Source: Plumapathes pennacea (taxonomy: Eukaryota > Cnidaria > Anthozoa > Antipatharia > Myriopathidae). From it: a stretch of DNA of 64,000 nt. Positions 1,724 to 39,300 of this stretch are shown here, piece after piece. The stretch covers positions 1,430,501 through 1,494,500 of the forward strand of contig OZ038464.1 of the NCBI GenBank assembly GCA_964036295.1. The letters are read 5' to 3'. The translations under genes were made by a program, and so were the position numbers. Positions within the stretch are counted from its first letter, which is position 1. Each line of letters begins with the position of its first letter. Below the pieces are notes generated by a model. That model had not been told where the DNA came from, did not search any database, and saw only the letters and a program-made list of their open reading frames with translations.

Positions 1724-1778
1724 AGTTCTCACTTTATAAATACAAAACTTTAAGTAGAAAAAAATTTTATAATAAGTT

Positions 1779-2276: not shown

Positions 2277-2345
2277 TTTGTATGTTAATCATTTTCCTTA
2301 AGTCCTTTTTTGGAAAAATCAATTTTTTTTATTTACTTTTAAAAA

Positions 2346-9159: not shown

Positions 9160-9392
9160 ATGGCAGATGACAAGGAACAGACTGGGACAATGAGGGAGGT
9201 CCACCTAACATGTAAACCAGGAACTGAGCCATACTATATAAAGTTTGGTTTAACCATTGATGGACCAAGAACGAAACAGTTCAAATTGACAGATGGAAGG
9301 GTTTGCAGGCCCCTGTGGTATGTTTTTAGAGTGGAAAAGAATGGCCCTGCAGAAAGAGAAGGCATTGTGCCTGGGGACTGTATCCTTAAACT
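9160..9392 (+). CDS. Exon 1: start codon and first part of PDZ domain
   Basis: AACATGG at 9157-9163 is a good start context and I choose this ATG, although the frame stays open upstream and an earlier exon cannot be excluded. The protein shows a PDZ carboxylate-loop-like FGLTI, then VFRVEKNGPAEREG and PGDCILKL, which match PDZ strands and the G-(D/C)-x-I-L core. The donor GTAAGT follows at 9393; phase 2. Confidence 0.85.
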
Positions 9393-12300: not shown

Positions 12301-15081
12301 GCGAGGTCTCACTAAGTGGGAAGCAAAATTTTATGGGTACAGTACTGTACATGTATTATGTCACAGAGTTACAGCACTGAGCTTTACCGTTAGATCTGTG
12401 ATAGTAAAAATGCACTGTCTGAACAAAATGATTTTAGTTGTGCTACAAGTTGTATGTTGTTCAACGGAATGCCACAGATTCAGTTCTGTAAACAAATAAA
12501 CAACAAACTTACTTTTCACTACTTCTCTTCACCCCTCTCCCAATAAAGGGAATATACTGCTTCCTCTCTTTTTAATGTTGGCCTGCAGGCAGCAAGACAT
12601 TGGGTGGTCATTTATTTACAGTATTTCTAAGACTGTGGAGGGGAGGAGTAGGGATAAAAATTACCAAATTCTCTATGGTTACTGTATGAACCAGGTGCTT
12701 TTGGCTGTTGGGTTCTGATGGTTCATTGTACTGTACCACAGAAGTGAAAATAGTGAGGTGACTGAGGCAATATAGTCAAGTTGCTTAGGTTGTTAATAAA
12801 AATGCTATAATGCCAGCTTTCTGCTTTGACTCTTTTTGTCAGAGATGGTAAGAATATGGAGGATGCTAGTCTGGATGATGTATATCGATGTGTCAAGATG
12901 TGGTATAAGAGCAAACTGGTGCTGGTCGTTATCTCTGATAGCCACTATCAGGTAAAGTGATTGTCACATGTAACTTGGAGTACTAGTCCCTGTTAAAACT
13001 AGGTTTCTTCTGTGTTGGCAAGGCAGTATATAATAGAAATAATATACAATATAAGTAAATAAATAATAATTAATTAATTAATTAATTAAATGAAATTCTA
13101 TATTTTTTAGTGTGGTCGTGTCTGTCAATTATCTTTCTAGTTGAACAGGTCCATAGTAAAACGCGTAAGTCGTGTTTGACTTTAGCTTTGAAATCTCGTC
13201 GTGATTTTGAAACAAAAAGTAGAAAGCAAAATCAAAGGGTACAGAAAACAGAGAAGGGAAAAAAAGAACGCATATTCGCTTTCCAAATTTGAACCTGAAC
13301 ACTTTTGAACAGCATCGGCAAATTTGAGTATGACAGAATCTCATTGGGAAAAAAACGCTTATTTTAGAAACTACGTGTAAAGTAAATTGTCTTGAAAATC
13401 TAATAATCGCAACTCTTTGTATCAGCGGGCTTTCATGTCCTAAAGATAAAATGAATCAAATACCACAAAATTACAACCTATGAAAAGTTTAATGGTCCTT
13501 CAGAGACTTTGCTTTGAGCTCTGTGGCCGTGCAAGAATATTTTTCTTTTGGAGTTTATGAAAGTACCTCAGTAACGCACTGTTTGTTCACGCCTCTTGAC
13601 CTTACTGGCTATTTAGATAGCAACTACTCCAAATGTGTCGTAGGTTTGCCTTTTATGTAGACAAGATCTTTAACTTTCTTTTTCTTTCAGCCAAGTCCAC
13701 ATCAGCAACTTTACAATGCTGCAGTTGATGGAGATCTTGAGGCCGTGAACAACGCACTCGAAGGAGGAGCTGACATAAACGTACACGTTGGTTTAGTAAG
13801 TACATGTAGTTTATTTGTCAGAAAACGAAGCTTCGGATCAAAGTTTGATCCTGTTTAAGTTTGTTTAAAGTCAAAGAAACATTAAAAATAGTTTTCTATT
13901 TGCGAGGCATCTTCGTAACTTAGAGAGACTACAAAAGAGCAACAAAATGCCTTTGGGGAGGGGGCGGGGGAAATCCGCGTCCGGGCGGACATTTTACCTG
14001 TCAATGTGCACTGATATGCAGTGTAGTAATCAGCATTATTCTACGAGGGCGTGCCGAATATGGAATGATAATTAACCAAAAAGGCGCCGCGCCAAGTGTA
14101 CTCCAGAAGGAATGGGCTAGAATAATTTGTGATTCAGTACTGATTTTAATTGACGAAAAAAAAATACCCGGAAGACGACTTCCGCTTCAAAATAGAATGA
14201 TCATATGATTACTGCAACTATGACAACGTCTTTGCGAACGGGCTGAATGAATCGAGTGAAGAAAGCATTTTCATGGAAATTACATGGCACAAACACTCGG
14301 AAGAAGTTTACAAAATATCTTAAGGTGATGTACCAAAATTACTGAAAACTTGGACGTTGTTACATCACATGAAACATCGCATTACGGAGGGAATAGGTTT
14401 TCTTGCTCGCTATGTGCGACGTTTGTGATGCTGCTTTAAAATGACAACTGGCTGTGCTGAACGACAACTGAAGCTGGAGATGCTTGAACATCAGCAAGGA
14501 ATATTAAAGAAGAAAACTATATCAGAGTCCATAGACAGAGTCGGCGGTGGTGGAAAACTGTTTACATCGCGGAGGCGAACCCAAGAAAGCAATCGACTCG
14601 ATGCCTGCTCGTATCGACTTGAGTGAAGGTGCTGTCTTGTTCCGTTTGCTGATGTGTAAAAATACTTGAGGCATGCAATTATTTCTTCTTTGCTCATTCT
14701 TCAAATTTTGTAAATTTGTCTCACCAAGGACTTACAAGCCACTCTGAAAAGGTTGTGAAATCTGAAAAATCTTCCTCAGCAGTACTTCGTCGCTTATACG
14801 TTCAATGACCGTATTTGTCCACAGAAAGGTTTTGACCCATCAAATATTTCCTTTCGCGCGTGTTTGGTGGAATTGTGACGCGTGACCGAATGACGTCCGC
14901 TCAGCGAGTAAACCCCCGCCTGGCGAACAATTGCTCCTTATTGACAATATCCGAACACAGTTCTATTTATTTTATCACAATAGACAATACGAGATGACTA
15001 CCGAGTATGACATCAATTCATTGGTCGAAGAAGTCGTTTTAGGAAGTATCAAAAACTTCACAGCCCCCGCGCCGTCATTTA

Positions 15082-15180
<99 letters not shown>

Positions 15181-18100
15181 GTAATAATAATAATAATAAT
15201 AATTAATAATGACGTTTATTTATACACGATGGTAGGCGACTGCAGCATACAAAGCTGATGTGGCCGTGTGATAAAATCTGTATATCAGGAATTAAAATTA
15301 GACTTAAGCTAAATAGTTGCATTGCCAGTTGGATATCTAACTAACTACCGATGTTTAATATACTGTCAGTAATATCTTAAAATCGAATTGATAAATAATA
15401 ACGCATAAATTTAAAATGGTTTCTCTGCACAGGTACGTAATTGAGTTAGGTGTATGCGTGTGTAAGTGGGTAGCGTAAGTATGGAAATTGTATAAGATAA
15501 TATAATAAAAAATATATATTGCCTAAAAGGTAACTGAGTAAAGGATGAGTTGAATGAGCGCTCTTTGCTTCAACTGTACTCAAAATCTTCGCTAATCCTT
15601 GTGTTTGGCTTTAGGAGTATGCTGTTTATGTGCTTTTTTACTAGTTTCTTGAAACAGGAGTGTGGTTCTTCTTGAAGGGGCTCTTCTAAGTAATTCCACG
15701 GTACTGATGACCTGTATGTGATTGACTTACGATGGGCGTCTGTGCGTGGTTGCGGAATGACTAGCTTGTTTCTACCTCTTAGAGAATGTTTAAAATTCCT
15801 TTGAGTGAGTTTACTATAGACGGTTTTCGAATGTACTGACTTACGCACAAATGTCGGTCCATTGTACTCTTTCGAGGACGTCAGTGCTGAAAGTGCTCCA
15901 TTCAATCTTGTCCCCGAGCGAAGCGAGAATCACGACCCTAATGCAGCAAAATCGCCTTATTTGAAGACTCCAAGCGTGTCGCCATCTCGAAATTTAATGT
16001 TCGCGTGTGTGTGGTACGACTTTTTAGGCCAGTTACGTAAGGCAATGACGTAATTATTATCGATTAGCGTCTCCGCCAGTGTTTTTACTGACATTCGGAA
16101 GAAAAATATTTGAACGAAGCAATAATTGTACGTAACTGCGTTCATGAAAATGAATTTGAAAACTGGAAAACTTGAAACAGAAGGGTCTCTCGAAGCTCGT
16201 CTTCAAAAGAAAAGGGAACAGGCACGGGCAAGGCGAAATCGTGAAGGGAACAGCGCTTGAAAGCAAGTCGGGAGCTTGAGACGTCGTTTTGTGTTAAACT
16301 CAGATACTTATTCAGAAAGGACAAGCAACAAAGGTTAGTCAATGGAATTCGAACAATCACCGTGACAAATATATTCTACCCGTATCTTCTAACTCGATCA
16401 CTTCAAGAATGTATTCATCCTCGGAGACCCAGGGGCAGATCGTGGAGCGGCGGTGAAAAGAACGGCGGGCAAAAAGCGGCGGAGGGGGAGGGGGGAGAAA
16501 CGAAGAGGAGGAAAAGAGCCCCTGGGAACACAGTCTGTTCAGACCAGTATTGAAGGCGTGAGACAGGCGCGCCGCCGATTGGGCGAAAAAATTTATCAAT
16601 TGTATTTTTTCGTCCAATCAGCGATTGTCGTCAAATGCCGCCTGTCAAAAGTCCATCAAAAAATTAAAAGATTAAGCGCGTTTACATTTCGTTCGGCAAG
16701 ATGGAAGAAGCTATTAAATTTTCTGTGTGATTATTTTCAAATGTCAAGGAGTTGAAAGCCGATCGAGCAGAAATTGGAGAATGTTGTGAAGGGAAGAGAT
16801 GTGTTTGGAAAGCTGCCAACGGGATTTGGCAAGAGTTTGACCTTTCAAGTTTTGCCAGTCGTTGCGAAAGCGATGAATGCTGCGGGCCAGAACTTCCCCG
16901 CTTCTCCGCTGGTCGTAATTTCACGGTACTTTTGGTTGCCGACAAACGTTTCAGGACCGTACAAGAAGTCGAAGCGTCCTTTTCCTTCAAGGATACGTCG
17001 GTCTTCGTCTGCGTTCTCCCCCACAAACGCAGCTTTGAAACCAATTGATCAAAGGTATGCGACCTGGTCTTGTATGATCGACGACAGAGGAGACAGAACA
17101 ACGACCAGCGGAGAAGCGGGGAAGTTCTGGCCCGCAGCATTCATCGCTTTCGCAACGAATGGCAAAACTTGAAAGGTCAAACTCTTGCCAAATCCCGTTG
17201 GCAGCTTTCCAAACACATCTCTTCCCTTCACAACATTCTCCACGATCAATTTCTGCTCGGCTTTCAACTCCTTGACATTTGGAAATAATCACACAGAAAA
17301 TTTAATAGCTTCTCCCATCTTGCCGAACGAAACGTAAACGCGCTTAATCTTTTAATCTTTTGATGGACTTTTGACGACAATCGCTGATTGGGCGAAAAAA
17401 TACAATTGATAAATTTTTTCGCCCAATCGGCGGCGCGCCTGTCTCACGCCTTCAATACTGGTCTGAACAGACTGTGTTCCCAGGGGCTCTTTTCCTCCTC
17501 TTCGTTTCTCCCCCCTCCCCCTCCGCCGCTTTTTGCCCGCCGTTCTTTTCACCGCCGCCCCACGATCTGCCCCTGGGTCTCCGAGGATGAATACATTCTT
17601 GAAGTGATCGAGTTAGAAGATACGGGTAGAATATCATGTACAGAGTAAGGCATAAAGCGTCATTGTTTTACGGCTAAAGCTCACCGTAGCTTTGGTTTCT
17701 GTTTTCGCCCTGTTATCTTCCCAAAAGTATTTCGTGTCGCCACAGAAAGTTTCGTCGGGACTAAATACTTATTGGCGACAGAGATATTTGCAATACCCCA
17801 GAAGTACCATCAAACATTTGTTTACGGCTATTCTCAAAGCTTGTGCGGTGAACGCGAGCCAAAATCTTTTCCTAAAATCCAGTTTATCCATGCCTATTCC
17901 ACAGAGCCAAATGGCGTTGAATTTGAATGGGATGCAGTTTACTTTTTCGCTTCACTACTTATATGTTTTCTTTTATTAACTCAATACGTTTCTTTCTATC
18001 AGGCTTTCGAGTATTCGTGCTCTGTAAGAAATATAAAATTGACAGCGAGGAATGTCACACGAGAGATGTTTACAATATTATTGCGCTTTTGTTCACAGTG

Positions 18101-21100
18101 TGTTCAGTCCATTTGTGACTGCAAACTCAATCCTCAGAATTATTTCGGTGTATTTTTCATTTCTGGTATTCACTGACCATTGCGAAACAAAGGCTACATC
18201 ATCGAATGAAAGAAACACTTCAACAGGCAATGTACGATACGCAGAAGAATTTTATGAGGCAACAGATGTCATGTACAGAGTAAAGCATAAAGCGTCATTG
18301 TTTTACGGCTAAAGCTCACCGTAGCTTTGGTTTCTGCTTTCGCCCTGTTATCTTCCCAAAAGTATTTCGTGTCGCCACAGAAAGTTTCGTCGGGACTAAA
18401 TATTTATCGGCGACAGCGGTACCATCAAATATTTGTTTACGGCTATTCTCAAAGCTTCCGCGGTGAACGCGAGCCAAAATCGTTCCCGAAAATCCAGTGT
18501 ATCCGTGCCTATTCCACAGAGCCAAATGGTGTTGAGTTTGGATGGGATGCAGTTAACTTTTACACACAAGTAACGAGCAATTCACTGGCCACATCTCGAG
18601 TTGTTTAGCGAAGTCAATTACGTCATCGCCCAGCACGTGATAATATGAACCAATCACCGTGTGCTGATCCTCGACCCACAAAAAGGAAAAATAAATAAAT
18701 AAAAATCTCCATTTTTAAGCTCTCGTGGGCCCCAGGCCCCCGCGAACAAAAATTCCGATTTTTAAGCTCTCGTGGGCCCCAGGCCCCCGCGAGCAACTAC
18801 TATGTGAACTCCAAGGAAAAGGTAGATAGTGGACGTGTTAGTACGTTGAAGCTCTGAAAATTTTGATCATTGTCTGTTGCTTTCTATTTTATTACATAAA
18901 GTTGTAATTGTGCTAATATTCGCAGCGTTGGTTAAAGGAGCAGTGTCGTTAGATGCTTATGCGTTTCTTTCTTTTTTTCTATCAATCGCAGACGTTCATA
19001 TTTGAAGGCCAAGTGTTAGGGCTGTCAAGCATGCTCTCTTAATACGTAGAGATATGTGTAGCATTAGCAGTCATACATGTGCAGCAAATGGTCATGAATG
19101 AGTTTCTCCCAGATTTGACTTCTCACTGCATTCGTCACGCTGGCTTTTTTTTTTTTTTTTTTTTTTTTTTTGAAAGGATGAATGGATTCCACTGCATCTG
19201 GCTTCACAGAACGGATATCTGGAGGTTGTGACTAAGTTAATCGATGCTGGAGCCGAGGTGAACTCCAAGGCAAAGGTAGATAGTGGACGTGTTAGTACGT
19301 TGAAGCTCTGAAAGTTTTGATCATTGTCGCTATCTATTTTATTACATAAAGTTATAATTGTGCTAATATTCGTAGCGTTGGTTAAAGGAGCAGTGTCGTT
19401 AGATGCATATGCGTTTCTTCCTCTTTTTCTATCAATCGCAGACGTTCATGTTTGAAGGCCAAGTGTTAGGGCTGTGAAGCATGCTCTCTTAATACGTAGA
19501 GATATGTGTAGCATTAGCAGTCATACATGTGCAGCAAATGGTCATGAATGAGTTTTTGCCAGATTTGACTTCTCACTGCATTCGTCACGCTGGCTTTTTT
19601 TTTTTTTTTTTTTTTTTGAAAGGATGAATGGATTCCACTGCATCTTGCTTCACAGAACGGATATCTGGAGGTTGTGACTAAGTTAATCGATGCTGGAGCC
19701 GAGGTGAACTCCAAGGCAAAGGTAGATAGTGGACGTGTTAGTACGTTGAAGCTCTGAAAGTTTTGATCATTGTCGCTATCTATTTTATTACATAAAGTTA
19801 TAATTGTGCTAATATTCGCAGCGTTGGTTAAAGGAGCAGTGTCGCTAGATGCATATACGTTTCTTCCTCTTTTTCTATCAATCGCAGACGTTCATGTTTG
19901 AAGGCCAAGTGTTAGGGCTGTGAAGCATGCTCTCTTAATACGTAGAGATATGTGTAGCATTAGCAGTCTTACATGTGCAGCAAATGGTCATGAATGAGTT
20001 TTATCCGGATTTTACCTCTCACTGCATTCGTCACGGTGTTTTTTTTTTTTTTTTTTTTGAAAGAATGAATGGATTCCACTGCATCTGGCTTCACAGAACG
20101 GATATCTGGAGGTTGTGACTAAGTTAATCGATGCTGGAGCCGAGGTGAACTCCAAGGAAAAGGTAGATAGTGGACGTGTTAGTACGTTGAAGCTCTGAAA
20201 GTTTTGATCATTGTCTGTTGCTATCTATTTTATTACATAAAGTTGTAATTGTGCTAATATTCGCAGCGTTGGTTAAAGGAGCAGTGTCGTTAGATGCATT
20301 TCCGTTTCTTTCTTTTTTTCTATCAATCGCAGATGTTCATGTTTGAAGGCCAAGTGTTAGGGCTGTCAAGCATGCTCTCTTAATACGTAGAGATATGTGT
20401 AGCATTAGCAGTCATACATGTGCAGCAAATGGTCATGAATGAGTTTTTCCCAGATTTGACTTCTCACTGCATTCGTCACGCTGGCTTTTTTTTTTTTTTT
20501 TTTTTTGAAAGGATGAATGCATTCCACTGCATCTTGCTTCACTTAACGGATATCTGGAGGTTGTGACTAAGTTAATCGATGCTGGAGCCGAGGTGAACTC
20601 CAAGGCAAAGGTAGATAGTGGACGTGTTAGTACGTTGAAGCTCTGAAAGTTTTGATCATTGTCTGTTGCTTTCTAGTTCATTACATCAAGTTGTAATTGT
20701 GCTAATATTCGCAGCGTTGGTTAAAGGAGCAGTGTGATTAGATGCACATGCGTTTCTTTCTTTTTTCTATCAATCGCAGACGTTCATGTGTGAAGGCCAA
20801 GTGTTAGGGCTGTCAAGCATGCTCTCTTAATACATAGAGATATGTGTATCATTAGCAGTCATACATGTGCAGCAAATGGTCATGAATGAGTTTTATCCGG
20901 ATTTGACTTCTTACTACATTCGTCACGGTGTTTTTTTTTTTTTTTTTTTTTTTTTTTTGAAAGGATGAATGGATTCCACTGCATCTGGCTTCACAGAACG
21001 GACATCTGGAGGTTGTGACTAAGTTAATCGATGCTGGAGCCGAGGTGAACTCCAAGGAAAAGGTAGATAGTGGACGTGTTAGTACGTTGAAGCTCTGAAA

Positions 21101-24100
21101 GTTTTGATCATTGTCTGTTGCTTTCTATTTTACTAGAAATACGATAATCGCAGATACCCCCTCACTCTGCCATTGATGGGACTTTTACTTTGGTAACTCC
21201 CAACAAGAGTAGCCTTTGTTTTACCGAAATGTTGACTCGATCTTTTCTTCGAAGTCAAGTGCTACACGCAAAGGAAGGAGAAAAAGAATGGTGTGTGTTA
21301 TACTTTTGCGTTGAAAAAAGAATCGATTGCGTGACGAAGTACGTATTTCCCACGGTCGGCACGTCAAATTAATTCATGCAGTCTGCCAAGCACGTTCTCA
21401 AAATTTAATACTCAAAGTTTGAAGTTGGTCGGCCGTCGTAGTACGGGAAAAAAGGAACACTGATTTTCCAATTTTGAATTCATAGGCAGTACAATTAAAT
21501 AGGCTTCCTGTGCGATTTGTTTTTACTCTGGACTGCATGCACCAGATTCAGACATGCATATTTAATAGGCTCGAATTGTTTTGTATGTGAACCCACTCAA
21601 AACAGCAAGATTTCTCCCAGAATCAAAGCAAAACTTGAACAGTTTACTTCAAATTATACAGGGGCTTGAGACCCAGTAATACTTCTAAGGGCTTGTGAAC
21701 GATTCTCGCTGCAATCACCGCGTGTCAGATTACAGAAAAATAAGACATGTTACTAAATCATTCAAGACTCCAAGTTCCGATTGCTCTGAGCGAATACGGT
21801 AGCCGAAACTGGCGACAGAAGCGTAGTAAAACAATACTTCGAGGGAAAATGATCAGCATACAGATTTTAATACATTCTTGAAGTGATCGAGTTACAAGCT
21901 ATACGGGATACAATATATTTGTCACGGTGATTGTTCGGTTTCCACTGACTAACCTTTGTTGCTTGTCCTTTCTAAATAAGTATCTGAGTTTAACACAAAA
22001 CGGCGTCTGAAGCTCCCGATTTGCTTTCAAGCGCTGTTCCCTTTGCGGAGTTGTCTGTGTTACCCGCTTCTGTTCATGTCGCTTTTGGTCAGCATTCATG
22101 CGCTGTTGTCTTTGCGGAGTCTTCTCTTCGGCTCGCTTTTTCTCCTGAAGGTCCCGATTCGCTTTCAAGCGCTGTTCTTTTTGCGGAGTTGTCTGTGTTG
22201 CCCGCTTCTGTTCATGTCGCTTTTGTTCGGCATTCATGCGCTGTTGTCTTTGCGGAGTCTTCTCTTCGGTCCGCTTTTGCTCTTGAAGTGCCTGTTCGCT
22301 TCTCTTTTGAAGACGAGCTTCGCGAGACCGTTCTGTTTCAAGTTTTCTAGCTTTCAAATTCATTTTCGTGAACGCAGTTACGTAAAATTGTTGCTTCGTT
22401 CAAATCTTTCTTAAAAACATGGCGGTGGCTAGTCGATAATGATTACGTCATTGCCTTATTTGGACATTGCCTTAGGCACCTGGCCTAAAAAGGTCGCATC
22501 GCACACACAAACACACGAACATTAGATTTCGAGATGGCGACGCGCTTGGAGTCTTCAAATGAGCCGACTATGCTGCATTAGCGTCGTAAATATTTCCCTC
22601 ACTTCGTTCGGGGATTACATAAAGTTGTAATTGTGCTAATATTCGCAGCGTTGGTTAAAGGAGCAGTGTCGTTAGATGCATTTGCGTTTCTTTCTTTTTT
22701 TCTATCAATCGCAGACGTTCATTTTTGAAGGCCAAGTGTTAGGGCTGTCAAGCATGCTCTCTTAATACGTAGAGATATGTGTAGCATTAGCAGTCATACA
22801 TGTGCAGCAAATGGTCATGAATGAGTTTCTCCCAGATTTGACTTCTCACTGCATTCGTCACGCTGGCTTTTTTTTTTTTTTTTTTTTTTTGAAAGGATGA
22901 ATGCATTCCACTGCATCTTGCTTCACTTAACGGATATCTGGAGGTTGTGACTAAGTTAATCGATGCTGGAGCCGAGGTGAACTCCAAGGCAAAGGTAGAT
23001 AGCGGACGTGCTAGTACGTTGAAGCTCTGAAAGTTTTGATCATTGTCTGTTGCTTTCTAGTTCATTAAATCAAGTTGTAATTGTGCTAATATTCGCAGCG
23101 TTGGTTAAAGGAGCAGTGTGATTAGATGCACATGCGTTTCTTTCTTTTTTTCTATCAATCGCAGACGTTCATGTGTGAAGGCCAAGTGTTAGGGCTGTCA
23201 AGCATGCTCTCTTAATACGTAGAGATATCTGTAGCATTAGCAGCCATACATGTGCAGCAAATGGTCATGAATGAGTTTTTCCCAGATTTGACTTCTCACT
23301 GTATTCGTCACGGTTTTTTTTTTTTTTTTTTTTTGAAAGGATGAATGGATTCCACTGCATCTGGCTTCACAGAACGGATATCTGGAGGTTGTGACTAAGT
23401 TAATCGATGCTGGAGCCGAGGTGAACTCCAAGGCAAAGGTAGATAGTGGACGTGTTAGTACGTTGAAGCTCTGAAAGTTTTGATCATTGTCTGTTGCTAT
23501 CTATTTTATTACATAAAGTTATAATTGTGCTAATATTCGCAGCGTTGGTTAAAGGAGCAGTGTCGTTATATGCATATGCGTTTCTTCCTCTTTTTCTATC
23601 AATCGCAGACGTTCATGTGTGAAGGCCAAGTGTTAGGGCTGTGAAGCATGCTCTCTTAATACGTAGAGATATGTGTAGCATTAGCAGTCAAACATGTGCA
23701 GCAAATGGTCATGAATGAGTTTTTCCCAGATTTGACTTCTCACTGCATTCGTAAAGGTGTTTTTTTTTATTTTTTATTTTTTTTTGAAAGAATGATAGGA
23801 TTCCACTGCATCTTGCTTCACTTAACGGACATCTGGAGGTTGTGACTAAGTTAATCGATGCTGGAGCCGAGCTGAACTCCAAGGAAAAGGTAGATAGTGG
23901 ACGTGTTAGTACGTTGAATCCCTGAAAGTTTTGATCATTGTTTGTTGCTTTCTCTTTCATTAGATAAAGTTGTAATTGTGCTAATATTCGCAGCGTTGGT
24001 TAAAGGAGCAGTGTGATTAGATGCACATGCGTTTCTTTCTTTTTTTCTATCAGTTGCAGACGTTCATGTTTGAAGGCCAAGTGTTAGGGCTGTCAAGCAT

Positions 24101-24648
24101 GCTCTCTTAATACGTAGAGATATGTGTAGCATTAGCAGTCATACATGTGCAGCAAATGGTCATGAATGAGTTTCTCCCAGATTTGACTTCTCATTGCATT
24201 CGTTACGGTGGTTTTTTTTTTTTTGAAAGAATGATAGGATTCCACTGCATGTTGCTTCACTTAACGGACATCTGGAGGTTGTGACTAAGTTAATCGATGC
24301 TGGAGCCGAGGTGAACTCCAAGGCAAAGGTAGATAGTGGACGTGTTAGTACGTTGAAGCCCTGAAAGTTTTGATCATTGTTTGTTGCTTTCTCTTTCATT
24401 AGATAAAGTTGTAATTGTGCTAATATTCGCAGCGTTGGTTAAAGGGGCAGTGTCATTAGATGCACATGCGTTTCTTTCTTTTTTTCTATCAATCGCAGAC
24501 GTTCATGTGTGAAGGCCAAGTGTTAGGGCTGTCAAGCATGCTCTCCTAATATGTAGAGATATGTGTATCATTAGCAGACATACATGTGCAGCAAATGGTT
24601 ATGAATGAGTTTTTTCCGGATTTGACCTCTCACTGCATTCGTCACGGT

Positions 24649-24682
<34 letters not shown>

Positions 24683-27360
24683 AAAGAATGATAGGATTCC
24701 ACTGCATCTTGCTTCACTTAACGGACATCTGGAGGTTGTGACTAAGTTAATCGATGCTGGAGCCGAGGTGAACTCCAAGGAAAAGGTAGATAGTGGACGT
24801 GTTAGTACGTTGAAGCTCTGAAAGTTTTGATCATTGTCTGTTGCTTTCTCTTTCATTAGATAAAGTTGTAATTGTGCTAATATTCGCAGCGTTGGTTAAA
24901 GGGGCAGTGTCATTAGATGCACATGCGTTTCTTTCTTTTTTTTCTATCAATCGCAGACGTTCATGTGTGAAGGCCAAGTGTTAGGGCTGTGAAGCATGCT
25001 CTCTTAATACGTAGAGATATCTGTATCATTAGCAGTCAGACATGTGCAGCAAATGGTCATGAATGAGTTTTATCCGGATTTCACTTCTCACTGCATTCGT
25101 CACGGTGTTTTTTTTTTTTTTTTTTTTTTTTTTTTGAAAGGATGAATGGATTCCACTGCATCTGGCTTCAGAGAACGGACATCTGGAGGTTGTGACTAAG
25201 TTAATCGATGCTGGAGCCGAGGTGAACTCCAAGGCAAAGGTAGATAGTGGACGTGTTAGTACGTTGAAGCTCTGAAAGTTTTGATCATTGTCTGTTGCTT
25301 TCTCTTTCATTAGATAAAGTTGTAATTGTGCTAATATTCGCAGCGTTGGTTAAAGGGGCAGTGTGATTAGATGCACATGCGTTTCTTTCTTTTTTTCTAT
25401 CAATCGCAGACGTTCATGTGTGAAGGCCAAGTGTTAGGGCTGTGAAGCATGCTCTCTTAATACGTAGAGATATGTGTAGCATTAGCAGTCTTACATGTGC
25501 AGCAAATGGTCATGAATGAGTTTTTCCCAGATTTGACCTCTCACTGCATTTGTAACGGTGTTTTTTTTTTTTTTTTTTTTTTTTTTTTGAAAGGATGAAT
25601 GGATTCCACTGCATCTGGCTTCACAGAACGGATATCTGGAGGTTGTGACTAAGTTAATCGATGCTGGAGCCGAGGTGAACTCCAAGGCAAAGGTAGATAG
25701 TGGACGTGTTAGTACGTTGAAGCTCTGAAAGTTTTGATCATTGTCTGTTGCTATCTATTTTATTACATAAAGTTATAATTGTGCTATTATTCGCAGCGTT
25801 GGTTAAAGGAGCAGTGTCGTTATATGCATATGCGTTTCTTCCTCTTTTTCTATCAATCGCAGACGTTCATGTGTGAAGGCCAAGTGTTAGGGCTGTGAAG
25901 CATGCTCTCTTAATACGTAGAGATATGTGTAGCATTAGCAGTCATACATGTGCAGCAAATGGTCATGAATGAGTTTTTCCCAGATTTGATTTCTCACTGC
26001 ATTCGTAACGGTGTTTTTTTTTTTTTTTTTTTTTTTTCTTTTTTTGAAAGAATGATAGGATTCCACTGCATCTTGCTTCACTTAACGGACATCTGGAGGT
26101 TGTGACTAAGTTAATCGATGCTGGAGCCGAGCTGAACTCCAAGGAAAAGGTAGATAGTGGACGTGTTAGTACGTTGAAGCCCTGAAAGTTTTGATCATTG
26201 TTTGTTGCTTTCTCTTTCATTAGATAAAGTTGTAATTGTGCTAATATTCGCAGCGTTGGTTAAAGGAGCAGTGTGATTAGATGCACATGCGTTTCTTTCT
26301 TTTTTTCTATCAGTTGCAGACGTTCATGTTTGAAGGCCAAGTGTTAGGGCTGTCAAGCATGCTCTCTTAATACGTAGAGATATGTGTAGCATTAGCAGTC
26401 ATACATGTGCAGCAAATGGTCATGAATGAGTTTCTCCCAGATTTGACTTCTCACTGCATTCGTTACGGTGGTTTTTTTTTTTTTTTTTTTTGTAAGAATG
26501 ATAGGATTCCACTACATGTTGCTTCACTTAACGGACATCTGGAGGTTGTGACTAAGTTAATCGATGCTGGAGCCGAGCTGAACTCCAAGGAAAAGGTAGA
26601 TAGTGGACGTGTTAGTACGTTGAATCCCTGAAAGTTTTGATCATTGTTTGTTGCTTTCTCTTTCATTAGATAAAGTTGTAATTGTGCTAATATTCGCAGC
26701 GTTGGTTAAAGGAGCAGTGTCATTAGATGCACATGCGTTTCTTTCTTTTTTTCTATCAGTTGCAGACGTTCATGTGTGAAGGCCAACTGTTAGGGCTGTG
26801 AAGCATGCTCTCTTAATACGTAGAGATATGTGTATCATTAGCAGTCATACATGTGCAGCAAATGGTCATGAATGAGTTTCTCCCAGATTTGACTTCTCAC
26901 TGCATTCCTTACGGTGGTTTTTTTTTTTTTTTTTTGTAAAAATGATAGGATTCCACTGCATGTTGCTTCACTTAACGGACATCTGGAGGTTGTGACTAAG
27001 TTAATCGATGCTGGAGCCGAGGTGAACTCCAAGGCAAAGGTAGATAGTGGACGTGTTAGTACGTTGAAGCTCTGAAAGTTTTAATCATTGTTTGTTGCTT
27101 TCTCTTTCATTAGATAAAGTTGTAATTGTGCTAATATTCGCAGCGTTGGTTAAAGGAGCAGTGTGATTAGATGCACATGCGTTTCTTTCTTTTTTTCTAT
27201 CAATCGCAGACGTTCATGTGTGAAGGCCAAGTGTTAGGGCTGTCAAGCATGCTCTCTTAATACGTAGAGATATGTGTATCATTAGCAGTCATACATGTGC
27301 AGCAAATGGTCATGAATGAGTTTTATCCGGATTTCACTTCTCACTGCATTCGTCACGGTG

Positions 27361-27391
<31 letters not shown>

Positions 27392-30300
27392 GATGAATGG
27401 ATTCCACTGCATCTGGCTTCACAGAACGGATATCTGGAGGTTGTGACTAAGTTAATCGATGCTGGAGCCGAGGTGAACTCCAAGGCAAAGGTAGATAGTG
27501 GACGTGTTAGTACGTTGAAGCTCTGAAAGTTTTGATCATTGTCTGTTGCTATCTATTTTATTACATAAAGTTATAATTGTGCTAATATTCGCAGCGTTGG
27601 TTAAAGGAGCAGTGTCGTTATATGCATATGCGTTTCTTCCTCTTTTTCTATCAATCGCAGACGTTCATGTGTGAAGGCCAAGTGTTAGGGCTGTGAAGCA
27701 TGCTCTCTTAATACGTAGAGATATGTGTATCATTAGCAGTCATACATGTGCAGCAAATGGTCATGAATGAGTTTTTCCCAGATTTGACTTCTCACTGCAT
27801 TCGTAACGGTGTTTTTTTTTTTTTTTTTTTTTTTTTTGAAAGAATGATAGGATTCCACTGCATCTTGCTTCACTTAACGGACATCTGGAGGTTGTGACTA
27901 AGTTAATCGATGCTGGAGCCGAGGTGAACTCCAAGGAAAAGGTAGATAGTGGACGTGTTAGTACGTTGAAGCCCTGAAAGTTTTGATCATTGTTTGTTGC
28001 TTTCTCTTTCATTAGATAAAGTTGTAATTGTGCTAATATTCGCAGCGTTGGTTAAAGGAGCAGTGTCATTAGATGCACATGCGTTTCTTTCTTTTTTTCT
28101 ATCAGTTGCAGACGTTCATGTTTGAAGGCCAAGTGTTAGGGCTGTCAAGCATGCTCTCTTAATACGTAGAGATATGTGTAGCATTAGCAGTCATACATGT
28201 GCAGCAAATGGTCATGAATGAGTTTCTCCCAGATTTGACTTCTCACTGCATTCGTTACGGTGGTTTTTTTTTTTTTTTTTTTTGTAAGAATGATAGGACT
28301 CCACTGCATCTTGCTTCACTTAACGGACATCTGGAGGTTGTGACTAAGTTAATCGATGCTGGAGCCGAGGTGAACTCCAAGGCAAAGGTAGATAGTGGAC
28401 GTGTTAGTACGTTGAAGCCCTGAAAGTTTTGATCATTGTTTGTTGCTTTCTCTTTCATTAGATAAAGTTGTAATTGTGCTAATATTCGCAGCGTTGGTTA
28501 AAGGAGCAGTGTGATTAGATGCACATGCGTTTCTTTCTTTTTTTCTATCAATCGCAGACGTTCATGTGTGAAGGCCAAGTGTTAGGGCTGTCAAGCATGC
28601 TCTCTTAATACGTAGAGATATGTGTATCATTAGCAGTCATACATGTGCAGCAAATGGTCATGAATGAGTTTCTCCCAGATTTGACCTCTCACTGCATTCA
28701 TCACGGTGTTTTGTTTTTTTTTTGTATTTTTTGAAAGGATGAGCGGATTCCACTGCATCTGGCTTCAGAGAACGGACATCTGGAGGTTGTGACTAAGTTA
28801 ATCGATGCTGGAGCCGAGGTGAACTCCAAGGCAAAGGTAGATAGTGGACGTGTTAGTACGTTGAAGCTCTGAAAGTTTTGATCATTGTCGCTATCTATTT
28901 TATTACATAAAGTTATAATTGTGCTAATATTCGCAGCGTTGGTTAAAGGAGCAGTGTCGCTAGATGCATATACGTTTCTTCCTCTTTTTCTATCAATCGC
29001 AGACGTTCATGTTTGAAGGCCAAGTGTTAGGGCTGTGAAGCATGCTCTCTTAATACGTAGAGATATGTGTAGCATTAGCAGTCATACATGTGCAGCAAAT
29101 GGTCATGAATGAGTTTCTCCCAGATTTGACTTCTCACTGCATTCCTTACGGTGGTTTTTTTTTTTTTTTTTTTGTAAGAATGATAGGATTCCACTGCATG
29201 TTGCTTCACTTAACGGACATCTGGAGGTTGTGACTAAGTTAATCGATGCTGGAGCCGAGGTGAACTCCAAGGCAAAGGTAGATAGTGGACGTGTTAGTAC
29301 GTTGAAGCTCTGAAAGTTTTAATCATTGTTTGTTGCTTTCTCTTTCATTAGATAAAGTTGTAATTGTGCTAATATTCGCAGCGTTGGTTAAAGGAGCAGT
29401 GTGATTAGATGCACATGCGTTTCTTTCTTTTTTTCTATCAATCGCAGACGTTCATGTGTGAAGGCCAAGTGTTAGGGCTGTCAAGCATGCTCTCTTAATA
29501 CGTAGAGATATGTGTATCATTAGCAGTCATACATGTGCAGCAAATGGTCATGAATGAGTTTTATCCGGATTTCACTTCTCACTGCATTCGTCACGGTGTT
29601 TTTTTTTTTTTTTTTTTTTTTTTTTTGAAAGGATGAATGGATTCCACTGCATCTGGCTTCACAGAACGGATATCTGGAGGTTGTGACTAAGTTAATCGAT
29701 GCTGGAGCCGAGGTGAACTCCAAGGCAAAGGTAGATAGTGGACGTGTTAGTACGTTGAAGCTCTGAAAGTTTTGATCATTGTCTGTTGCTATCTATTTTA
29801 TTACATAAAGTTATAATTGTGCTAATATTCGCAGCGTTGGTTAAAGGAGCAGTGTCGTTATATGCATATGCGTTTCTTCCTCTTTTTCTATCAATCGCAG
29901 ACGTTCATGTGTGAAGGCCAAGTGTTAGGGCTGTGAAGCATGCTCTCTTAATACGTAGAGATATGTGTAGCATTAGCAGTCATACATGTGCAGCAAATGG
30001 TCATGAATGAGTTTTTCCCAGATTTGACTTCTCACTGCATTCGTAACGGTGTTTTTTTTTTTTTTTTTTTTTTTTTTGAAAGAATGATAGGATTCCACTG
30101 CATCTTGCTTCACTTAACGGACATCTGGAGGTTGTGACTAAGTTAATCGATGCTGGAGCCGAGCTGAACTCCAAGGAAAAGGTAGATAGTGGACGTGTTA
30201 GTACGTTGAAGCCCTGAAAGTTTTGATCATTGTTTGTTGCTTTCTCTTTCATTAGATAAAGTTGTAATTGTGCTAATATTCGCAGCGTTGGTTAAAGGAG

Positions 30301-33300
30301 CAGTGTGATTAGATGCACATGCGTTTCTTTCTTTTTTTCTATCAGTTGCAGACGTTCATGTTTGAAGGCCAAGTGTTAGGGCTGTCAAGCATGCTCTCTT
30401 AATACGTAGAGATATGTGTATCATTAGCAGTCATACATGTGCAGCAAATGGTCATGAATGAGTTTCTCCCAGATTTGACCTCTCACTGCATTCATCACGG
30501 TGTTTTGTTTTTTTTTTGTATTTTTTGAAAGAATGAGCGGATTCCACTGCATCTGGCTTCAGAGAACGGACATCTGGAGGTTGTGACTAAGTTAATCGAT
30601 GCTGGAGCCGAGGTGAACTCCAAGGCAAAGGTAGATAGTGGACGTGTTAGTACGTTGAAGCTCTGAAAGTTTTGATCATTGTCGCTATCTATTTTATTAC
30701 ATAAAGTTATAATTGTGCTAATATTCGCAGCGTTGGTTAAAGGAGCAGTGTCGCTAGATGCATATACGTTTCTTCCTCTTTTTCTATCAATCGCAGACGT
30801 TCATGTTTGAAGGCCAAGTGTTAGGGCTGTGAAGCATGCTCTCTTAATACGTAGAGATATGTGTAGCATTAGCAGTCATACATGTGCAGCAAATGGTCAT
30901 GAATGAGTTTCTCCCAGATTTGACTTCTCACTGCATTCCTTACGGTGGTTTTTTTTTTTTTTTTTTTTTGTAAGAATGATAGGATTCCACTGCATGTTGC
31001 TTCACTTAACGGACATCTGGAGGTTGTGACTAAGTTAATCGATGCTGGAGCCGAGGTGAACTCCAAGGCAAAGGTAGATAGTGGACGTGTTAGTACGTTG
31101 AAGCTCTGAAAGTTTTAATCATTGTTTGTTGCTTTCTCTTTCATTAGATAAAGTTGTAATTGTGCTAATATTCGCAGCGTTGGTTAAAGGAGCAGTGTGA
31201 TTAGATGCACATGCGTTTCTTTCTTTTTTTCTATCAATCGCAGACGTTCATGTGTGAAGGCCAAGTGTTAGGGCTGTGAAGCATGCTCTCTTAATACGTA
31301 GAGATATGTGTATCATTAGCAGTCATACATGTGCAGCAAATGGTCATGAATGAGTTTTATCCGGATTTCACTTCTCACTGCATTCGTCACGGTGTTTTTT
31401 TTTTTTTTTTTTTTTTTTTTGAAAGGATGAATGGATTCCACTGCATCTGGCTTCACAGAACGGATATCTGGAGGTTGTGACTAAGTTAATCGATGCTGGA
31501 GCCGAGGTGAACTCCAAGGAAAAGGTAGATAGTGGACGTGTTAGTACGTTGAAGCTCTGAAAGTTTTGATCATTGTCTGTTGCTATCTATTTTATTACAT
31601 AAAGTTATAATTGTGCTAATATTCGCAGCGTTGGTTAAAGGAGCAGTGTCGTTATATGCATATGCGTTTCTTCCTCTTTTTCTATCAATCGCAGACGTTC
31701 ATGTGTGAAGGCCAAGTGTTAGGGCTGTGAAGCATGCTCTCTTAATACGTAGAGATATGTGTAGCATTAGCAGTCATACATGTGCAGCAAATGGTCATGA
31801 ATGAGTTTTTCCCAGATTTGACTTCTCACTGCATTCGTAACGGTGTTTTTTTTTTTTTTTTTTTTTTTTTTGAAAGAATGATAGGATTCCACTGCATCTT
31901 GCTTCACTTAACGGACATCTGGAGGTTGTGACTAAGTTAATCGATGCTGGAGCCGAGCTGAACTCCAAGGAAAAGGTAGATAGTGGACGTGTTAGTACGT
32001 TGAAGCCCTGAAAGTTTTGATCATTGTTTGTTGCTTTCTCTTTCATTAGATAAAGTTGTAATTGTGCTAATATTCGCAGCGTTGGTTAAAGGAGCAGTGT
32101 GATTAGATGCACATGCGTTTCTTTCTTTTTTTCTATCAGTTGCAGACGTTCATGTTTGAAGGCCAAGTGTTAGGGCTGTCAAGCATGCTCTCTTAATACG
32201 TAGAGATATGTGTAGCATTAGCAGTCATACATGTGCAGCAAATGGTCATGAATGAGTTTCTCCCAGATTTGACTTCTCACTGCATTCGTTACGGTGGTTT
32301 TTTTTTTTTTTTTTTTTTTTGTAAGAATGATAGGACTCCACTGCATCTTGCTTCACTTAACGGACATCTGGAGGTTGTGACTAAGTTAATCGATGCTGGA
32401 GCCGAGGTGAACTCCAAGGCAAAGGTAGATAGTGGACGTGTTAGTACGTTGAAGCCCTGAAAGTTTTGATCATTGTTTGTTGCTTTCTCTTTCATTAGAT
32501 AAAGTTGTAATTGTGCTAATATTCGCAGCGTTGGTTAAAGGAGCAGTGTGATTAGATGCACATGCGTTTCTTTCTTTTTTTCTATCAATCGCAGACGTTC
32601 ATGTGTGAAGGCCAAGTGTTAGGGCTGTCAAGCATGCTCTCTTAATACGTAGAGATATGTGTATCATTAGCAGTCATACATGTGCAGCAAATGGTCATGA
32701 ATGAGTTTCTCCCAGATTTGACCTCTCACTGCATTCATCACGGTGTTTTGTTTTTTTTTTTGTATTTTTTGAAAGGATGAATGGATTCCACTGCATCTGG
32801 CTTCAGAGAACGGACATCTGGAGGTTGTGAGTAAGTTAATTGATGCTGGAGCCGAGGTGAACTCCAAGGAAAAGGTAGATAGTGGACGTGTTAGTACGTT
32901 GAAGCTCTGAACGTTTTGATCATTGGTTGTTACTTCCTATTTCATTACATAAAGTTGTATGTGTAGTAATTTTTGTAGATCATTGTCTGTTGCTTTCTAT
33001 TTCATTACATAAAGCTCTATGTGTTCTGATTTTCGTAGCGTTGGTTAAAGGAGCAGTGTCATTAGATACAGATGCTCCTTGTTTTTTTCTATTAATAGCA
33101 CACGTGCATGTTTTAAGGCCAAGTGTTAGGGCTGTCAAGCACGCTTTTTAAAGTGTATATATTTGATAGTCCACGTGTGTGGTAGTTTGTATAGGGTTGG
33201 TTTAAGGAGCAATGTTGCATTATTTCTCTTTCTGTTGGTTTTGCAAGAGTTGCAGGAAGTAATTTCACTTCATTTTTAAGCTCGCGAAGCGCAGCTTTAT

Positions 33301-36300: not shown

Positions 36301-39300
36301 TATTTATTTATTTTTTGTCCGAAAACTCTGTTTCTATTTTGTGTCTGATATAACGTTGCATGTATTAAATTTACATAAGCTCCCTCGATGAGCTTTTTGC
36401 TTGTGCAAAATTTCAACCTAATCCGTTAAAACCCGCTTACACTGGAACTCCAAGAAAACGCTACAAAACGCGTTTTTCAGATGCAGAGAAAATTGCGCCT
36501 GAAGATTTTCGGCACCCCGACGGTTTTTGTTGACGTAAGCAGTTAAACTGTCAGCCAGAGGTCACTTTGATTCACTTTGATGTAAAGCAGCGTCGTGTAA
36601 TCTAGCCCAAGACTTCTTCCTTCGGTGGGTTTTTCGCTCAACAGTGATTTTCTTCGTGGTTTAGCTATGCCGAATCACATACGCAATGCTTGTGTTTTGC
36701 CAGATTTCACGCGATATATCGGCGTTGCATAAGACGCATAAGTTGACGAGTGATGACAGGTCGCGACAGGGGCCACTTTGATCGAAATTTTCCTTTGAGC
36801 CAATTTCTCGCGGAATAAAGCAGAAAGTCGAAAAAGGACAATGAATTCGGGCGGATATATTGGAAATAAGTCACATTACAGAAAATTTTTTTTTTCGAAA
36901 CAAATTCAGAGTGTAAGAACCAATTTTTGGGGTCAGCGGGAGTTTACATTTAGTTTGACTTATGAAAAGATCGACGTTTGACCCCGAGACGATCTTCGGA
37001 CGTTCTTCCCGTCTGCAACAGACGGAAAGAACGTCTTGGTCGATCCAAATACAATCAGTCGAACTTAATTGAGTCAAACGTCGATCTTATCATAAACTTA
37101 ATTCGCTCAGTTTAGTTCGTCTCGTCTGCATGAAGTACGTCGTTTGACCTGGGCCTAAGGCTGGACCCAAAAATGGTACAGCTTGCGAACGCAACAATTG
37201 TGTAAATTCTGGTGACAGCAAAGAACGTAATTAATTGAACAGAATGTTCAATTTCCTTTTTTTTCTTTGGTTTCTCCACGTTTGTCAGTTTGTCCTCCTC
37301 CATCTCGTGTAGGATACTTGATGTTATTATGACTTGCATTTGACTTCTATATTGATCTCTTTCGTTTTTCGTTTTTTTGTTTTCTTGTAGTCGGGAAGAA
37401 CTCCACTCGATATGGCTGTACACAGTGATCATGTTGAGATTGTGAACACACTCATAGATGCTGGAGCTGATCTAAACTGTGGGGTAAATAGTTTATATTA
37501 TATATGAAAAATAGTTTTCTTGGATTTCCATGCTTGTCCACGGAGTTTAATTTTTTAAAAGCATAACTTATTTTACTTAGACTAATGTCCTTCATAATTA
37601 AATGCTAGTCCCTGTGAAACTAGTTTTACTCTGCGTCGGCGAAGAGATAAGACGTAGAGTGTGTCACCCTAAGGTTGATGTGGATGAGCGTGACGCCGTA
37701 AAGGTGGTGTAAGCGGACGGTTCGAGCGTTAGCTGTCTGAGGAAGTGCTAATGCTCCACACGTTAGCAACCTTTACGCTGTTGATCACATTCTCGTCAAC
37801 ATCAGGATGACAGATATTATGCGTTGCAATGTCATTACAGTGAACAGAAATGTAAATTGTGTGCCATGAGCATATTTCATATCGATTCGGGAAAAGAATT
37901 TTCAGGGAGAGCGCTTTGATATAACGCATAATAAATTTTGCACATAAGCAATCTGTTGTTCTGGGCTTCTAATTCTTCGAATACTTTGCTCGCAAGATTT
38001 AAATGTAGTTATGTGGTCACTTTCCATTGGGAGGAAAGGGGTTGGATTATCAGAATCTTCATTTACACAAAGAATTTTAACTGGGTCTTCTTTACACACC
38101 AAACATTTTGGATTCAATGTTTATGCAGTTGTGTATCCTTGAACGTACACCCATAGTTATTACGATTAGTAAGTCATTGAGGTAAACAACAACAGTCCTC
38201 CTGGAGACTCCTCACGGCAAGTTTTTTTTTTGATGATGAAACAAAGTAACGTGGCAAATGGTTTGAAGCCAGGAGTATCTGTCGTCTTCAGAAATACTGT
38301 TGATAACTGACTTTGTGACCAACTGCACTGACTGACTTATTATTATTTCGTTCAGACTTCATTCACTCCTTTCACCTACCCCACTTTTGACCAGTACGAC
38401 GTATTTAACTGTAAGTTTGTTAAGTTCAAACTGCACATATATTGAAGTCAAAATTGGCGGTGCTACGTTTACGATTTTAAAGGCCTTTTCTCAAAATCAG
38501 CTCATCTATTAAAGAGGGGGGAGGATTGCATATTAGCAAATTATGCTCCTTCATACAAAGATCTAACTGTACATCTCTCTTTGTCTAGGTATTTCAGAAT
38601 GAACCAGGTGATGGTGGTTTTGGTCCCAATTTTGGTTCAGATTCTAATCTTGATCATGCACCCCAGGATGCAATGGGTAAACATTGAACTTATCTCAATT
38701 AAAAAACTATATAAACGACATGGGTTGTAGTAAAATATATTCATTTTGTGTGGGTGTGTGGGGAGGAGTTGTTGGTATGCTGGCCATTTTCTGTTGCAGT
38801 CCTTGTTTAAGTATAAGTGCGAGGCAGCTTTGACTTTTAGAATGATTAATTTACTAGAAACGCGGTCAGAGATATGATGGAAATATTACCACACTCGCGC
38901 ATGCATTGGGATTTCTGTGAGAATGATGTTGGAGGGAGAAAAAGCTTTTTGCGCCGTAGCATATATAGCCAATACTTCTGATTGATTGGGCAGTTTAATA
39001 ACACTGAAGTTTTAGCTAGAAATTATGCGAGAAAAACGAGTATGTAATTTCTCGTGAATAGGCCACTTCCACACCCATCAACAGCAGCTTATAATTTTGG
39101 TTGGTACATAATTACATTACAACTTAGGCCCTGTTTATATGAGAAATAGTTGGCCCAGGGGCCCGAGTCAGCCTTCTCCCTAAGCGAAGTTTACCAAGCA
39201 TTTATATGGAAAAATGTTTTCCCGGGTAAACCGGGTCAAAGCTGGCCCTATCGGTTTCGAGACTGGAAAGAATATTTAAAACATCAGTTTATAAAGCCCA

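Follow-up and report, generated by a model that had tools for sequence, protein, structure and literature searches.

Within a 64,000-nucleotide stretch of Plumapathes pennacea DNA, which we call the window (contig OZ038464.1, here C3; positions 1430501-1494500 in a 290-Mb genome of 24 contigs), 28 tandem ankyrin exons lie inside a gene of the Roco GTPase superfamily (g1). From its sequence, it is probable that this gene and its relatives encode ankyrin-Roco receptors and that, under diversifying selection, the exchange of symmetric exons drives the evolution of their sensor arm. The 28 exons would then form the sensor arm of an intracellular, receptor-type GTPase with the layout PDZ, ankyrin cap, n ankyrin repeats, last ankyrin, Roc-COR, and effector. 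The units are symmetric and their introns almost the same, so that repeats can be gained, lost, or shuffled in frame when introns undergo unequal crossing-over or conversion; selection would keep the ankyrin frame and core and favor change at ligand-facing positions. The long ankyrin solenoid would bind a variable microbial or non-self ligand, after which a protease or a Death domain would be activated through GTP-dependent Roc-COR dimers, much as in nucleotide-binding leucine-rich repeat receptors (NLRs). What we infer in this mechanism is that the mature protein uses the array and recognizes a ligand, that GTP drives its switching, and that it serves an immune or non-self role. Invertebrates lack antibodies and must diversify receptors by other routes, and a binding arm of up to about thirty interchangeable exons could change in length and diversify at its presumed binding face while leaving the gene intact.

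The ankyrin exon array and its gene

Sliding a 99-bp reference unit along both strands of the window located 28 exons on the forward strand (19177-32874). As the initial annotation had described, all 28 are 99 bp long, in phase 0-0, and free of stops, and each encodes one ankyrin repeat. Units 1 to 14 start at 19177, 19623, 20064, 20512, 20964, 22896, 23340, 23791, 24230, 24687, 25141, 25594, 26051, and 26497, and units 15 to 28 at 26941, 27392, 27843, 28289, 28738, 29179, 29632, 30083, 30532, 30975, 31426, 31877, 32326, and 32776. A whole unit including its intron measures about 450 bp, with a unit-to-unit spacing of 439-457 bp and a single outlier of 1,932 bp. The intron between units 5 and 6 carries a dispersed-repeat insertion of about 1.5 kb (21126-22614), with copies elsewhere in C3 (1506433-1507935, 97.9% identical, and also at 1495263, 1534010, and 1595962). 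Tandem Repeats Finder scores for the two stretches of the array (4029 and 17580) indicate that it did not arise by chance. The 28 units comprise 15 distinct exon sequences and 14 distinct peptides.

The array had initially been taken to start at 18804. This site instead holds an 18-bp 3′ remnant of a 5′-truncated ankyrin exon (18804-18821, forward strand) with its donor behind it; whole exons begin at 19177. Positions 18795-18830 are identical to C3:1546099-1546134, upstream of the array of a tandem paralogue (g3, see below), and both matches start at exon base 82. Since both arrays are preceded by this remnant, cut at an identical left edge, the truncation is older than the split between g1 and g3.

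The donor AAG/GTAGAT is present in all 28 units and the acceptor AG in 27. In unit 15 (26941-27039, forward strand) the frame is open and the acceptor AG has changed to AA (…tgtaaa), so that this unit is expected, judging by its border, to be skipped or mis-spliced. Such an acceptor suggests that skipping is tolerated, and any subset of exons keeps the frame because all 28 are in phase 0-0. The array could therefore be chiefly a splicing device, in which variable skipping of near-identical symmetric exons yields many lengths and combinations per allele, as in Dscam or the leucine-rich repeat (LRR) ROCO genes of brown algae; alternative splicing of such arrays is reported for the latter (passages of PMC11378527). 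This idea is compatible with the receptor explanation, and as the main role of the array we regard it as unlikely: the pairing of the array donor with U1 (−6.5 kcal/mol) falls within the range of the other g1 donors (−4.9 to −8.3 kcal/mol), for which reason weak donors were rejected as a sign of programmed skipping.

The g1 model is an open frame of 2,240 residues in 38 exons, all on the forward strand, with no stop and consistent phases (splice sites read by hand); GT-AG borders occur at every junction, the acceptor of unit 15 being the one exception. It covers exons up to 46500, the 3′ end beyond this position lying outside the model, and consists of two PDZ exons, the cap, the 28 units, the last ankyrin exon, a linker, a Roc exon, three COR-region exons, and a trypsin exon. 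Exon 1 (9160-9392, phase 0-2) contains the ATG start and the first part of the PDZ domain in an open frame ending at the donor GTAAGT, and exon 2 (12843-12951, AG/GT borders) contains the second part. Joined, they match the Pfam families PDZ_6 (1.8e-9) and PDZ (1.5e-7). The ankyrin cap (exon 3; 13691-13795, 105 bp) has no Pfam match by itself and matches the unit profile weakly. The last ankyrin exon (37391-37483, 93 bp; Pfam Ank 9.4e-9) was one of two more-diverged ankyrin exons found by the sliding search, the other being at 53190. Both cap and last exon are in phase 0-0 with AG/GT borders and the gene frame is open throughout, which bears out the initial proposal that the array is fitted in phase between them.

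Downstream of the ankyrin exons, a linker (38589-38676, phase 0-1; AG/GT borders, continuous frame) leads to the Roc GTPase exon (39965-41201, phase 1-2; Pfam Roc 5.1e-15 on the enclosing frame) and to the COR-A exon (43088-43532; Pfam COR-A 1.6e-12 on the enclosing frame). The next two exons are defined by frame and borders and have no Pfam match; the first (44089-44429) probably encodes the rest of COR and is followed by one at 44917-45241. The last modeled exon (45528-46500) encodes a trypsin-like protease (Trypsin_2, 8.6e-15), and the stretch around its presumed active-site serine aligns with solved serine proteases. Roc and COR thus follow one another in consecutive in-frame exons, the arrangement by which Roco (ROC-COR) proteins are recognized, and sequence matches of this region in the PDB are to Roco proteins and LRRK2, then to Rab-type GTPases. 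The motif GQDRAGKT in the Roc exon reads, by eye only, as a P-loop.

Pfam scans of exons from the C3 genes (up to 46500 in g1, and short of the C-terminus in g4) returned Roc, COR-A, PDZ, Ank, Trypsin_2, and Death, and neither NACHT nor NB-ARC, the NTPase domains of NLR and STAND receptors. A search for exons by synonymous excess in stop-to-stop frames among the paralogues was abandoned: the paralogues are too similar even outside exons, and the flagged frames were mostly not the later exons. Exons were instead defined by reading splice sites and by lifting the g1 exons to the paralogues.

Paralogues, unit turnover, and contact positions

Four genes of one plan lie within C3:1.43-1.62 Mb, with 28 (g1), 7 (g2), 7 (g3), and 5 (g4) ankyrin units between the cap and the last ankyrin exon. 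When the ten unique exons of g1 were lifted to the other genes, each gene yielded nine of them, and every splice border seen had its AG or GT, including those of the second PDZ, last ankyrin, and COR-A exons in all three; the 5′ part of exon 1 in g4 lay outside the stretch searched. Exon 1 is 98.3% identical in g3 without a gap, and the cap exon is 97-100% identical in the three paralogues. Indels occur in several g4 exons and in the first PDZ exon of g2, and no stop was found in the exons compared (an exon-wise comparison, not one of assembled frames). The protease exon was not found in g2-g4, and tblastn gave no other match to it in the C3 cluster; in g2 and g3 a Death domain (PF00531, about 1e-7) takes its place, so that the C-terminal effector differs among the paralogues. 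Within the window, a lone last-ankyrin exon (53190-53282, forward strand; sliding search and unit profile), with a 14-residue scrap of a Death exon downstream (53722-53763), is the relic of a further copy, and an additional COR-A at C3:1628554 suggests a fifth gene nearby.

Immediately 3′ of the array, g1 shares 98% identity with both g3 and g4. Aligned blocks over the gene are 90-98% identical between g1 and g3, which differ fourfold in unit number; array length has therefore changed fast relative to sequence. In the Roc and COR exons (for pairs with g4, the three COR-region exons only), the ratio of non-synonymous to synonymous divergence (pN/pS) is 0.39-0.65 in five of the six paralogue pairs.

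Two further observations concern the N-terminal exons. In the second PDZ exon, non-synonymous and synonymous changes number 15:1 (g1-g2), 18:1 (g2-g3), and 5:0 (g1-g3), and the PDZ domain may therefore also be under diversifying selection. The g1 cap exon is 100% identical to its g2 counterpart (C3:1505071-1505175) within a 992-column block that is only 87.2% identical, reflecting either conversion or constraint.

To assess turnover within arrays, the 47 units of the four genes were compared over the exon and 350 bp of intron. Three g1 pairs (units 18 and 27, 20 and 24, and 22 and 26) show no base difference wherever they align, gaps disregarded, and mean unit identity peaks at lags 9, 5, and 4, indicating that blocks of units were duplicated. 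For 44 of the 47 units the nearest neighbor lies within the same array (27/28 in g1, 6/7 in g2, 7/7 in g3, and 4/5 in g4), and units evolve in concert within arrays. The products of exchange are thus seen in the differing unit numbers, in the lag-4 and lag-9 identity, and in homogenization. We infer unequal exchange as their cause, and the identity at these two lags is as expected from it. The differing unit numbers and the identical units at lags 4 and 9 also agree with the earlier suggestion that units can be gained or lost in frame.

Units identical over all aligned bases are hard to assemble, and the unit number could be wrong through collapse or expansion of the assembly. Against this, many units differ enough to be ordered and similar arrays recur at other loci. 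An assembly artifact is accordingly extremely improbable as an account of the array; the existence of the arrays is beyond doubt and their exact unit counts alone are in question.

Across the 47 units, the 99 exon columns contain no gap, whereas the 463 intron columns contain 41 distinct gap intervals (22 once the 80 mostly poly-T columns preceding the exon are excluded; gaps at the very ends were not counted). The codons for P7, H9, A11, G15, E18, V19, D25, A26, and K33 are invariant, and those for L8, S12, L17, V20, L23, G27, A28, N31, and S32 vary only synonymously, with positions numbered according to the common ankyrin consensus. The absence of exon indels and the invariant core residues are the basis for stating that frame and core are kept. 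They also bear on the view that the exon-intron unit multiplied neutrally within an intron, like a satellite, and that the gene is either silent or spliced past the array. In favor of this view, overall exon divergence in g1 (0.056) falls between the two intron values (0.047 and 0.076), the array begins with a truncated exon, and it is interrupted by a dispersed repeat. Neutral amplification was nonetheless rejected on the contrast in gaps between exons and introns, on the absence of stops in all 114 exons translated throughout, and on the codon-position pattern; purifying selection on Roc-COR speaks against it as well, and we consider it very improbable.

Variation in the exons was then related to six contact positions fixed beforehand (2, 3, 5, 13, 14, and 33, in the beta-hairpin and inner helix), a set taken from designed ankyrin libraries that we presume to apply here. 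Divergence was measured by pairwise counts only, and the permutation p is the chance of six random positions doing as well. In all seven arrays, pN at the contact positions is 2.5-5.6 times pN elsewhere and exceeds pS, with p < 0.05 in five. Permutation p is 0.0395 (g1), 0.0040 (g2), 0.14 (g3), and 0.062 (g4) in the C3 cluster, and 0.0001 (C4:9.19 Mb, 28 of 31 known units), 0.018 (C2:36.65 Mb, 20 of 20 units), and 0.0012 (C3:2.52 Mb, 19 units) elsewhere. In g1, contact pN is 0.141 versus 0.039 at the remaining positions, with pS of 0.044 and an intron divergence of 0.061; the ratio of contact pN to intron divergence is 2.3 (unit bootstrap 1.7-3.0). Counting amino-acid types instead of pairs gives p of 0.042 (47 units), 0.050 (g1), and 0.0013 (C3:2.52 Mb). 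Because unit pairs share ancestry, these p values are indications, not exact probabilities. An overall pN/pS above 1 was set aside as proof of positive selection, since this ratio differs between arrays (1.35, 0.56, infinite, and 0.81 across the C3 arrays).

These counts lend statistical support to diversifying selection at the presumed contact positions. Of the earlier claim that the array is a modular recognition surface, the concentration of variation at presumed ligand-contact positions upholds the surface; recognition of a ligand would be a further step of the proposed mechanism. The same concentration, seen in seven arrays, argues against a long structural or elastic ankyrin solenoid, a scaffold or spring whose length depends on the number of repeats and for which their sequence is nearly irrelevant. 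That most of the repeat is invariant and that the 28 units yield just 14 peptides would fit such a solenoid; the combination of Roc-COR with a protease or Death domain is a signaling layout and close paralogues range from 5 to 28 units, so that a purely structural role appears decidedly unlikely. In fungal ankyrin repeats, positive selection has been reported on the concave surface, with one exception (passages of PMC4986451).

Ankyrin exon clusters across the genome

In all, the genome contains 17 clusters of such exons, this array among them, a result beyond what the window alone could show. Searches with three array units plus direct scans identified at least 200 exon positions; the counts are lower bounds, each unit search having scored at most 150 candidates, with clusters delimited by a 13-kb gap rule and coordinates copied by hand. 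The largest cluster has 31 known units (C4:9187591-9223321). Median spacings in regular arrays are about 450, 769, 802, 1008, 1140, and 1508 bp. Three clusters at C2:28.4 are irregular, and two on C3 consist of only three and two scattered exons, one exon having a stop in its match. Borders were read in 124 array units, and 123 of them show AG, 99 bp, and GT, the exception being unit 15 of g1; this includes 28/28 units read on C4 (31 known), 20/20 on C2, and 19/19 at C3:2.52 Mb.

COR-A was found at 63 places in the genome at E ≤ 0.001, 55 of them above the Pfam cut-off. It lies downstream of the ankyrin exons, on the same strand and within 31 kb, in 14 of the 17 clusters, and at 35.5 kb in one more. 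The chance expectation of this placement is about 0.3% per cluster (63 places, 31 kb, two strands, 290 Mb), the clusters not being independent. Three of the COR loci, when read out, gave LRR-Roc-COR frames of 1,005-1,047 residues, and no protein kinase match was found in these three frames (exons after them lay outside the reading). Two types of Roco gene thus appear to carry ankyrin exon arrays: PDZ-ANKn-Roc-COR-effector in the C3 cluster, and ANKn followed by LRR-Roc-COR on C2, C4, and C11.

Taken on their own, the 63 COR-A places (on C2, C3, C4, C8, and others) amount to a large Roco repertoire, many of them outside the ankyrin arrays described. A region at C3:2514885-2537163 carries 19-20 ankyrin exons at a spacing of about 802 bp with the same contact-position bias, and has no COR-A within 60 kb.

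Several observations weigh against the receptor reading. Some concern selection: exon divergence in g1 is overall not below the intron figures, the unit pairs are non-independent, and two of the seven arrays miss p < 0.05 alone. Contact pN in g4 (0.122) is lower than the divergence of the ungapped donor-side intron (0.133), and that in g2 (0.309) barely exceeds it (0.282). In the C3 cluster position 33 never varies and position 2 hardly does, positions 1, 10, and 16, outside the preset list, vary strongly, and the contact set itself is carried over from designed ankyrin libraries. Taken across all codons, pN/pS reaches only 1.35 in g1 and 0.56 in g2, and the peptide variety of the g1 array is small. 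Others concern the genes: pN/pS in the g3-g4 COR exons is 1.25 on few changes, and this value, the indels in several g4 exons, and a C-terminus without clear assignment mean that g4 may be decaying. No COR-A occurs within 60 kb of the C3:2.52 Mb array or of one C2 cluster, and unit 15 has no acceptor AG. Finally, splicing of the array is predicted from its borders, and the argument for an immune role is one of architecture.

Some features of the window and its surroundings have no evident bearing on the array. A (TAA)43 microsatellite lies at 15080-15210, and a helicase-like fragment on the forward strand (16756-17172; DEAD 4.6e-4, below cut-off) is perhaps transposon-derived. Rfam and tRNA scans of the window gave no match. 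A provirus-like block of reading frames occupies C3:1416023-1429900, left of the window, together with window positions 1100-2288 on the reverse strand. It includes a packaging-ATPase-like frame (Pox_A32, PF04665, 7.5e-17) and a weak major-capsid match (PF16903, 0.0027, below cut-off); the two frames in 1100-2288 match DUF2738 and, below cut-off, Rho_N, and one of them starts like a left-flank frame. This block is perhaps a Polinton or adintovirus-like element. In the mitochondrial contig (C24, 17,711 bp), cox1 is split by a stretch with a homing-endonuclease-like frame, and the gene order is cox3-cox1-nad4L-cox2 (names assigned by eye), a layout in keeping with hexacorals such as sea anemones.

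Comparison with known systems

A broader reading extends the receptor explanation to an anthozoan, genome-wide ankyrin-Roco repertoire independent of that in brown algae, in which exon-bank arms would combine haplotype turnover, perhaps splicing, and ligand-face diversification to recognize microbes, symbionts, or non-self tissue. We put this forward tentatively, as a possibility somewhat short of an even chance. If true, a Roco design with one repeat per symmetric exon arose both in brown algae and, with different repeats, in an animal, and exon banks would be a general way for receptors to evolve fast. The system would also point to a part in immunity or allorecognition for Roco proteins, whose superfamily includes the Parkinson kinase LRRK2.

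No description of ankyrin exon arrays in animal Roco genes appeared among the literature matches listed, subscription journals being mostly outside the coverage. The available passages of two papers on animal immunity (PMC8195603 and PMC8260672) do not describe such arrays, and the word “exon” is absent from both. As far as the literature searched and our sequence analysis indicate, the design is known from brown algae and its ankyrin version in animal Roco genes was not found described.

The genes share the Roc-COR core with LRRK1, LRRK2, and other animal Roco proteins, as the PDB matches indicate, and the order of ankyrin, LRR, and Roc-COR at the C2, C4, and C11 loci resembles that of LRRK1. 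Unlike the LRRK kinases, COR is followed by Trypsin_2 in g1 and by a Death domain in g2 and g3, with no kinase match in the exons and frames scanned. We know of no arrays of near-identical-repeat exons in LRRK1, LRRK2, or other animal Roco proteins. In human LPA (kringle IV-2) and similar variants, protein length likewise depends on how many copies of an in-frame exon block are present; LPA, in contrast, is a secreted kringle protein and forms no receptor repertoire.

Haplotype-specific expansions of domain-combination genes are reported in Acropora corals (PMC12314368, in part), and these too are anthozoan repeat-sensor genes growing by unequal recombination. They differ from the arrays described here in being whole-gene duplications, and the words “exon” and “Roc” do not occur in the text available. 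The NLRs of the fungus Podospora anserina have high-identity ankyrin, tetratricopeptide (TPR), or WD repeats with measured polymorphism in repeat number (passages of PMC4986451). They resemble the genes described here in near-identical ankyrin repeats, concerted evolution, positive selection mostly on the concave face, an NTPase switch, and varied effectors. Unlike the Roco genes, they are NTPases of the STAND (signal transduction ATPases with numerous domains) class; their repeats were amplified from genomic DNA, and an exon-per-repeat structure is not mentioned in the passages of that paper.

The closest parallel is provided by the LRR-ROCO genes of Ectocarpus and Saccharina, in which each LRR is encoded by one 72-bp, phase-2 exon, with positive selection on the concave side and alternative splicing (PMC11378527, in part, citing Zambounis et al., 2012). 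One repeat per symmetric exon in a Roco gene under diversifying selection was thus already published, and the initial description of the locus as an undescribed system was overstated. Both systems pair a Roco GTPase with an N-terminal repeat sensor, tandem symmetric one-repeat exons, and a large Roco repertoire, and in both the ligand face diversifies, as indicated here by the excess of contact pN over the rest and over pS in every array compared. Alternative splicing of the repeat exons is documented in brown algae and may occur in P. pennacea. The brown-algal genes have LRRs in 72-bp, phase-2 exons, and the animal genes have ankyrin repeats in 99-bp, phase-0 exons, together with PDZ and a protease or Death domain. 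Since repeat, exon length, phase, and host all differ, the ankyrin-Roco genes work like the brown-algal LRR-ROCO system and are not members of it.

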